The translations under genes and the position numbers were made by a program. A stretch of 36,575 bases of DNA, taken from IMG/VR virus record IMGVR_UViG_3300046168_000012, positions 1-36,575 of that record; one strand, 5' to 3'. Source of the DNA: a virus. Under the pieces are notes generated by a model. The model searched no databases. It had not been told where the DNA came from and saw only the letters and a list, made by a program, of their open reading frames with translations. This document shows positions 14,005 to 16,026 of this stretch, one piece after another (within the stretch, counting starts at the first letter, position 1; every line of letters begins with the position of its first letter).

Positions 14005-14013
14005 TGTTTTTAT

Positions 14014-14046
14014 TATATTATCTGTTAGTGTTTGTATTTTGTTTGT
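14014..14046 (-). promoter_or_regulatory. Repeated promoter element, copy 1
   Basis: Minus-strand 33-bp unit: ACAAACAAAATA, 9 variable bases, ACAGATAATATA. Both boxes match the consensus exactly. It lies just upstream of the gene at 13753-14004. TAATAT resembles a -10 box, but there is no TTGACA at the normal distance, which suggests a sigma factor with unusual -35 preference. Confidence 0.8.
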
Positions 14047-14049
14047 AAA

Positions 14050-14238: not shown

Positions 14239-14260
14239 AGTTTATGTATTTAAAAATTAG

Positions 14261-14339
14261 TGGAGGTGGACAGAATCGAACTGTCTTCCGTAGTAATTCC
14301 TTTGCAGGCTTTTTACTACGTCAAAACCATATCACCCCC
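14261..14339 (-). ncRNA. tmRNA-like tRNA domain without mRNA-like domain
   Basis: 79 nt that fold as acceptor stem GGGGGTG/CACCTCC (7 bp, one G-U), a D-loop-like segment ATATGGTTTTGAC with no D stem, an 8-bp stem CGTAGTAA/TTACTACG closed by 16 nt (with CCT/AGG able to pair inside), a GAA linker, then a T arm GACAG-TTCGATT-CTGTC and discriminator A. CCA is not encoded. The order GGGGxTGAT, GGTTTTGAC, long stem instead of anticodon arm, then GGA and T arm is that of tmRNA rather than tRNA. The mRNA-like and pseudoknot regions, normally about 300 nt inside the long stem, are absent. A divergent tRNA-Cys (GCA lies in the loop) is the alternative, but no proper D or anticodon stem forms. Confidence 0.55.
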
Positions 14340-14341
14340 AT

Positions 14342-14422
14342 ATACCACCTGTCACTACGACTGGCTTTGTACAACTGATACCTTAAGGAAGCCAAGGCGT
14401 CGATTTACTGTTAGGGTGGTAT
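14342..14422 (-). ncRNA. Structured RNA segment adjoining the tmRNA-like RNA
   Basis: An 8-bp perfect pairing ATACCACC (14415-14422) with GGTGGTAT (14342-14349) encloses 65 nt. Inside, CGAC/GTCG and TGGCTT/AAGCCA can pair in nested order around a CCTTAAGG palindrome. The unit ends 2 nt before the acceptor stem of the tmRNA-like RNA, so both are likely part of one transcript. No open reading frame of note occupies it on the minus strand. The fold is from hand pairing only. Confidence 0.4.
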
Positions 14423-14619
14423 TGCTAGCTATTCACTTATGTATAAACTTGACAACAATGCTTTCGCTTGACAACAATGTTTATCTAATTAAGCTACTCG
14501 TCTAGCTAAGCTAGGGTAATAACTATTGAGTGTTTTTAGTTAAAGCATTTGGACTCGGTAACCTGTTATTTATTCGCTTTTATACTTGCATTCTCACTCG
14601 CATTACTACTCGATACTAG
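14423..14619 (-). other. Non-coding stretch with short repeats
   Basis: No convincing gene on either strand. It holds two 13-bp direct copies of CTTGACAACAATG (plus-strand 14448-14460 and 14467-14479), a CTAGC/GCTAG inverted pair near 14502-14514, and several CGAGT words on the minus strand. It may be the 5' part of the structured transcript that ends at 14261. Confidence 0.35.
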
Positions 14620-15868: not shown

Positions 15869-15878
15869 AGTTTTTTAT

Positions 15879-15911
15879 TATATTATCTGTTAGTAATATT
15901 ATTTTGTTTGT
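15879..15911 (-). promoter_or_regulatory. Repeated promoter element, copy 3
   Basis: Exact match to both 12-bp boxes with a 9-bp spacer identical to that of copy 2. Like copy 2 it forms the end of the upstream coding sequence. It drives the gene starting at 15868. Confidence 0.8.
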
Positions 15912-16026
15912 AATACAACATAGATTCTAATGAATCATTATTATATCTTGTCCAATACTGTCGCTCTATTGATTCAATTTGAGCACGAGTTATTTTAATT
16001 ATTTTATTATGTGAATGTTTTCTCAT
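15883..16026 (-). CDS. Small basic protein, 47 aa
   Basis: MRKHSHNKIIKITRAQIESI then ERQYWTRYNND and the promoter-encoded tail YYKQNNITNR. Its ATG overlaps the TGA of the upstream gene (ATGA at 16023-16026). Function unknown. Confidence 0.6.
   Translation of the reverse strand: MRKHSHNKIIKITRAQIESIERQYWTRYNNDSLESMLYYKQNNITNR

Follow-up and report, generated by a model that had tools for sequence, protein, structure and literature searches.

A phage-encoded tRNA-like domain of tmRNA without its mRNA-like interior belongs to a large, mostly unannotated family

The window analysed here, the whole stretch of 36,575 nucleotides, is a 36.6-kb fragment of a marine phage with flavophage affinities. 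The terminase has matches in 87 records, most of them from Flavobacterium and Cellulophaga phages, the best (62.8%) being to an uncultured podovirus, and relatives of its primase/helicase were found in Cellulophaga phages. The window carries genes for GroEL, DNA ligase, MazG and a primase-helicase. Amid small minus-strand genes, and co-directional with them, lies a 79-nt RNA (14261-14339, minus strand, counted to the discriminator base), which we call the mini-tmRNA. A dispersed intergenic repeat of 36-41 nt occurs at 14009-14049 and 15873-15913, as well as in the related contigs L002, L021 and L029; lying upstream of small genes, it is possibly a promoter or leader element.

Read on the minus strand from 14339 to 14261, the mini-tmRNA runs GGGGGTG ATATGGTTTTGA CGTAGTAA AAAGCCTGCAAAGGAA TTACTACG GAA GACAG TTCGATT CTGTC CACCTCC A. 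The acceptor stem, as read from the sequence, pairs GGGGGTG (14333-14339) with CACCTCC (14262-14268). Its third pair is a G.U, formed by G3 at 14337 and U70 at 14264, and the alanylation determinant of tmRNA, G3.U70, is thus present. The discriminator A73 (14261) is followed by CTA, and no CCA is encoded in the window copy. The D-loop-like ATATGGTTTTGA (14321-14332), placed by the sequence and by alignment to the Rfam tmRNA family RF00023, has no D stem. It is followed by the P2 helix, with CGTAGTAA (14313-14320) and TTACTACG (14289-14296) as its strands, and by the T arm GACAG-TTCGATT-CTGTC (14269-14285). The 16 nt closing P2 in place of the mRNA-like domain (14297-14312) are not a plain loop: they form a cap in which a 3-bp mini-hairpin, CCT-GCAA-AGG, stands behind a purine internal loop of AAAG and AA. 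The minimum-energy fold of the RNA is the fold described (-28.7 kcal/mol, z -3.5, equalled by 1 of 200 shuffles). An initial annotation made from the letters alone had claimed a 7-bp acceptor stem, a D-loop-like stretch (GGTTTTGAC) without a D stem, an 8-bp stem replacing the anticodon arm and a canonical T arm; each of these is found on the minus strand.

Rfam 15 assigned positions 14258-14339 to tmRNA (RF00023) at 64.7 bits and E 3.4e-23, the cut-off being 47, and our own model, R1, scores the window RNA at 86.8 bits. The RF00023 alignment spans the model end to end (1-374), with 304 of the 374 positions, in the interior, absent. The tRNA-like domain (TLD) of tmRNA is present with its 7-bp acceptor, D loop without a D stem, P2 and T arm; the resume codon, tag and pseudoknots of the mRNA-like domain are absent from the window RNA. 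No tRNA family was listed for it in the Rfam search up to E = 5, ARAGORN returned no match, and neither program recovered the tRNA cloverleaf (RF00005) with D and anticodon arms. The RF00023 match with its missing interior supports the earlier identification of a tmRNA TLD devoid of the mRNA-like domain. The suggestion in the same annotation of a degenerate tmRNA does not stand, as the RNA matches the tmRNA family and no tRNA family. A permuted two-piece tmRNA was ruled out, since one 79-nt unit with a closed stem holds both acceptor strands. The idea that the cap is a remnant of pseudoknot 1 found no support beyond a loose GTAAA likeness in full tmRNAs.

Using a first pattern for a tmRNA TLD whose D loop and T arm are separated by only 15-45 nt, we detected 40 viral loci comprising 27 distinct RNAs. 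With a relaxed pattern, viral contigs yielded at least 120 stretches; a slightly altered version of this pattern gave 32 in 84,980 bacterial and archaeal genomes. Acceptor and T stems are paired in every viral match among those listed, but in only about half of the genome matches; about half of the relaxed genome-scan matches, in which acceptor pairing was absent, were discarded. The pattern scans gathered at least about 124 distinct RNAs of 59-83 nt, mostly from phage contigs. They comprise a short form of 59-65 nt ending in a plain hairpin, a long form of 75-82 nt, the P2 of which mostly carries an AARRCC-NNNN-GG-type cap, and an 83-nt form with a different cap in Poribacteria.

The fold is maintained by compensatory change. 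In the 27 RNAs of the first scan, pairing holds in 95% of cases at the stem positions that the pattern did not constrain; recombining strands between sequences at random lowers this to 52% (at most 68% in 500 shuffles). All four free T-stem positions are paired in 27 of 27 matches, and the free acceptor positions 5 and 6 in 25 of 27 matches unbiased by selection. Among 34 divergent long forms, seven of the eight P2 pairs show two-sided changes, and the cap motif AARRCC..GG recurs while the letters of P2 vary. The covariation score of these long forms is 0.68, against 0.15 for shuffled and at most 0.14 for slid alignments. Intact stems were a criterion for entering this set, which biases its acceptor and T-stem counts; P2 played no part in the selection. 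The initial annotation had named a lack of compensatory changes in related phages, or a high-scoring ordinary tRNA fold, as observations that would speak against it: the changes proved plentiful, and no such fold scored in Rfam or ARAGORN. The Rfam match, the R1 score and the covariation together establish that 14261-14339 encodes a real structured RNA, the TLD of tmRNA without the interior of about 300 nt. Across the close relatives, the ends of the RNA tend to be the limits of conservation: contig L002, for example, is 98.9% identical to the window over 14249-14339, and the bases beyond are unalignable. In L021 and L008 conservation reaches further.

The G3.U70 pair is strictly kept. U70 was found in 27 of 27 matches to a pattern that allowed C or T at this position, and G3.U70 occurs in every verified member, even where neighbouring pairs change. 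BLAST searches with one member revealed unannotated copies in the Streptomyces phages LuckySocke, GiJojo, pSt2308 and BRock and in Stenotrophomonas virus Jojan60, all of which Rfam confirms at 57-64 bits. A diverged copy in Streptomyces phage Riptide, which the family model and a BLAST search with a different member recovered, does not rise above the Rfam cut-off. In BRock, LuckySocke, GiJojo and Riptide, a set not selected by the U70 pattern, pair 4:69 is U-A instead of G-C and G3.U70 is intact. Riptide also has a full tmRNA match (94862-95130) in addition to its mini-tmRNA (L216, 83298-83374), which has an altered D loop. A BLAST search with L114 against phages gave no match. RaK2, K64-1 and Av-05 were rejected as members, their T-arm similarities lying below the tmRNA cut-off; weak tmRNA- or tRNA-like RNAs, also below cut-offs, adjoin annotated tRNAs in Klebsiella phage RaK2 (L043, about 997-1086) and Av-05 (L042, 1013-1102). 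Matches in Shandong1, a Moorella phage and OQ658364 turned out to be integrase-side fragments or a full tmRNA.

The mini-tmRNA thus belongs to a large, mostly unannotated phage family. A neighbour gene common to the phage groups was sought and none was found; contexts differ between groups. Several members form part of tRNA arrays and share the strand of the tRNAs, the distance to a tRNA being only 0-8 nt in some, and in one other phage group the RNA sits between head-protease-like and capsid genes. In one 136-kb phage contig (L080 and L104), two distinct mini-tmRNAs are separated by about 67 kb.

Just upstream of the mini-tmRNA the window contains an array of structured cassettes (14342-14619, minus strand). 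Such arrays, built from classes that we designate A to G, are also seen in L002, L008, L014, L017, L021, L022, L029 and L221-L238. The class F cassette (14342-14423), with the terminal stem AATACCACC/GGTGGTAT, ends 2 nt before the mini-tmRNA and recurs upstream of it in L008; its single-sequence folding is not significant, and it has no Rfam match. It is preceded by a class A cassette (14424-14508), TAGCTAGACGAGTAGCTTAATTAG-variable hairpin-ACATAAGTGAATAGCTAGC, whose pattern occurs in 21 contigs, and by a class G cassette (14513-14619), GTATCGAGTAGTAATGCGAGTGA..CACTCAATAGTTATTACCC, shared with L017, L221, L227 and L238. The variable slots are filled with hairpin modules, and these are swapped and nested from cassette to cassette. 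In the 25 class A slots extracted, the closing stem is paired in 88% of cases versus 57% after shuffling; slots of classes B, D and G give no clear closing-stem signal. One hairpin module, GAGGGATCGTTATGAACTC, turns up in class A, class D and class G cassettes. Class G itself, in its own or a diverged form, is nested inside other RNAs in L227 and L230; in L227 the enclosing RNA is another TLD-like RNA. Rfam matched only ordinary tRNAs and the mini-tmRNA in these arrays.

A second TLD-like RNA of 79-125 nt takes the place of the mini-tmRNA at the end of ten arrays (L222-L227, L229-L231 and L237). It has the ends GGGCGTG...CACGTCC or variants of them, a perfect 7-bp acceptor and the D loop GGTTAG. 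All ten copies have G3.U70, and pairs 4:69 and 5:68 covary. A hypervariable insert is closed by a stem paired at 89% compared with 46%, and the RNA has no Rfam match at the gathering cut-off. In the flavophage group of the window, the mini-tmRNA may end a combinatorial array in which tRNA-like scaffolds, the second G3.U70 RNA among them, display exchanged and nested hairpin modules. Such a 'tRNA-scaffold display' of decoys would probably be directed against host translation or defence factors; we offer it tentatively, at somewhat below even odds.

SmpB was found in none of the 39 window-type records and none of the eight named phages (47 phage records). In 14 bacterial genomes with a mini-tmRNA copy, full-length tmRNA was detected in 12 and SmpB in 12. 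The Poribacteria copy, an 83-nt TLD-only RNA, occupies a conserved chromosomal locus in 8 of 85 Poribacteria genomes (L150, L152, L158, L159, L164, L172, L176 and L177). It is convergent with a PLP-decarboxylase gene at seven loci and adjoins a Na/Ca-exchanger gene at four. Both full tmRNA and SmpB were detected in six of the eight copy-bearing genomes.

The locus encodes a free-standing tRNA-like domain of tmRNA in which a short capped helix replaces the mRNA-like domain. We propose, with a probability of roughly 0.58, that the mini-tmRNA is an alanylated decoy which deprives host tmRNA of SmpB and stalled ribosomes. In its favour count the Rfam match with the missing interior, the covarying family with its constant G3.U70, the members close to tRNA genes, the lack of SmpB in the phage records tested, and the published precedent of mycobacteriophage DS6A. 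By analogy with established tmRNA biology, RNase P and 3' nucleases would cut the RNA from the minus-strand transcript, CCA would be added, and host AlaRS would charge it with alanine. The charged RNA would bind host SmpB and EF-Tu.GTP, enter stalled ribosomes where host tmRNA would otherwise act. There it could accept the peptide, but having neither resume codon nor tag it could not finish trans-translation, and host tmRNA activity would consequently drop during infection, with no SsrA tagging of truncated proteins. According to PMC4131195 and PMC11915505, E. coli tmRNA is strongly inhibited by a molecule similar to the TLD-only RNA of DS6A, in chargeable and unchargeable form alike. With inhibition independent of alanine, titration alone leaves the strict G3.U70 unexplained; the strictness of this pair in phages suggests that natural members of the family work while charged, which makes occupation of stalled ribosomes likelier than a passive SmpB sponge. 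The absence of an encoded CCA in the window copy (CTA instead) counts against the decoy.

The two RNAs of Riptide and the Poribacteria copies, six of them alongside full tmRNA and SmpB, fit better with a helper role than with sabotage. The charged mini-tmRNA might, together with host SmpB, release stalled ribosomes without tagging and thereby help phage translation: the peptide would receive one alanine and then be hydrolysed by another factor, as has been proposed for tag-less mitochondrial tmRNAs. Such mitochondrial RNAs persist alongside SmpB (PMC11915505), and a rescue function would also account for the retained G3.U70 and for a chromosomal copy in Poribacteria. We nevertheless consider it unlikely, as the TLD-like RNA of the cited experiment is described as an inhibitor, and phages seldom run short of the rescue supplied by the host.

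Its place as the 3' terminal unit of a structured-RNA array in the window's group, and between head-protease-like and capsid genes in another, would suit a tRNA-like element that directs RNase P cleavage or protects the array or mRNA without any tmRNA action. A cleavage element, however, would need neither G3.U70 nor a tmRNA-type D loop, and the RNA is also present in unrelated phages and in tRNA arrays, which makes this role rather improbable. Strict G3.U70 and the conserved acceptor and T arm would equally be expected of a sink for AlaRS or EF-Tu, or of an alanyl donor to a non-ribosomal reaction; for these, however, an acceptor minihelix would suffice, with no need to conserve P2 or a D loop of the tmRNA type, and we regard this possibility as very improbable.

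Since tmRNA genes often serve as integration sites, and internal tmRNA deletions are found in older MAGs (PMC11915505), the RNA might be an attachment-site remnant or an assembly deletion of a normal tmRNA gene. Instead of an integrase beside a 3' tmRNA fragment, we find both halves present, closed by an 8-bp stem that covaries. Tyrosine integrases are present in 7 of 44 records and lacking in 37, and neither the window nor any close relative searched has one, so that the RNA is not in general an attachment-site by-product. Its occurrence in complete isolate genomes leaves this explanation hardly credible. The odd tRNA-Cys raised by the initial annotation, or another very odd tRNA, would explain the canonical acceptor and T arm and the GCA triplet in the cap, but with no match to a tRNA model or ARAGORN, no D stem and GCA lost in relatives its probability is negligible.

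The scans add at least about 124 sequences of this type, almost none of which standard annotation had picked up. With this family one can test whether attack on trans-translation is common among phages and whether a template-less tmRNA can do anything useful on the ribosome, a question that also concerns mitochondrial tmRNA. The copies in Streptomyces phages, whose hosts are laboratory strains, make such tests practical. The adjoining modular array may represent a new phage RNA class.

The kind of molecule is already known from DS6A and from organellar tag-less tmRNAs. The DS6A RNA (tmID 11587; Mao et al. 2009), as presented in PMC4131195 and PMC11915505, is like the present family a phage-encoded one-piece TLD with no tag template; this comparison is by description only, with the AARRCC..GG cap outside it. 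DS6A is a single mycobacterial phage, whereas the family here comprises at least about 124 sequences from many phage groups and Poribacteria chromosomes. Jakobid and oomycete mitochondrial tmRNAs (RF02544) have likewise lost the tag template and kept the TLD, but they are organellar, usually derive from a permuted two-piece gene and work with a nucleus-encoded SmpB. The CDS-less tmRNA of Mallomonadaceae (about 65 bp), also TLD only, is close in size to our short forms of 59-65 nt; it differs in being a plastid gene, with only two sequences reported (PMC11915505). Full-length phage tmRNAs, as in Cellulophaga phage Calle and Pelagibacter and Methylophilales phages, share the phage origin and the same TLD but keep the tag-coding and pseudoknot region. 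A 2025 tmRNA survey lists only nine one-piece ('standard') sequences without a tag CDS. In the part of the literature covered by our search, we met no report of the size and spread of this family, its conserved cap, its strict G3.U70 or its chromosomal copies in Poribacteria; the family size, the conserved stem cap and the strict G3.U70 appear to be new.
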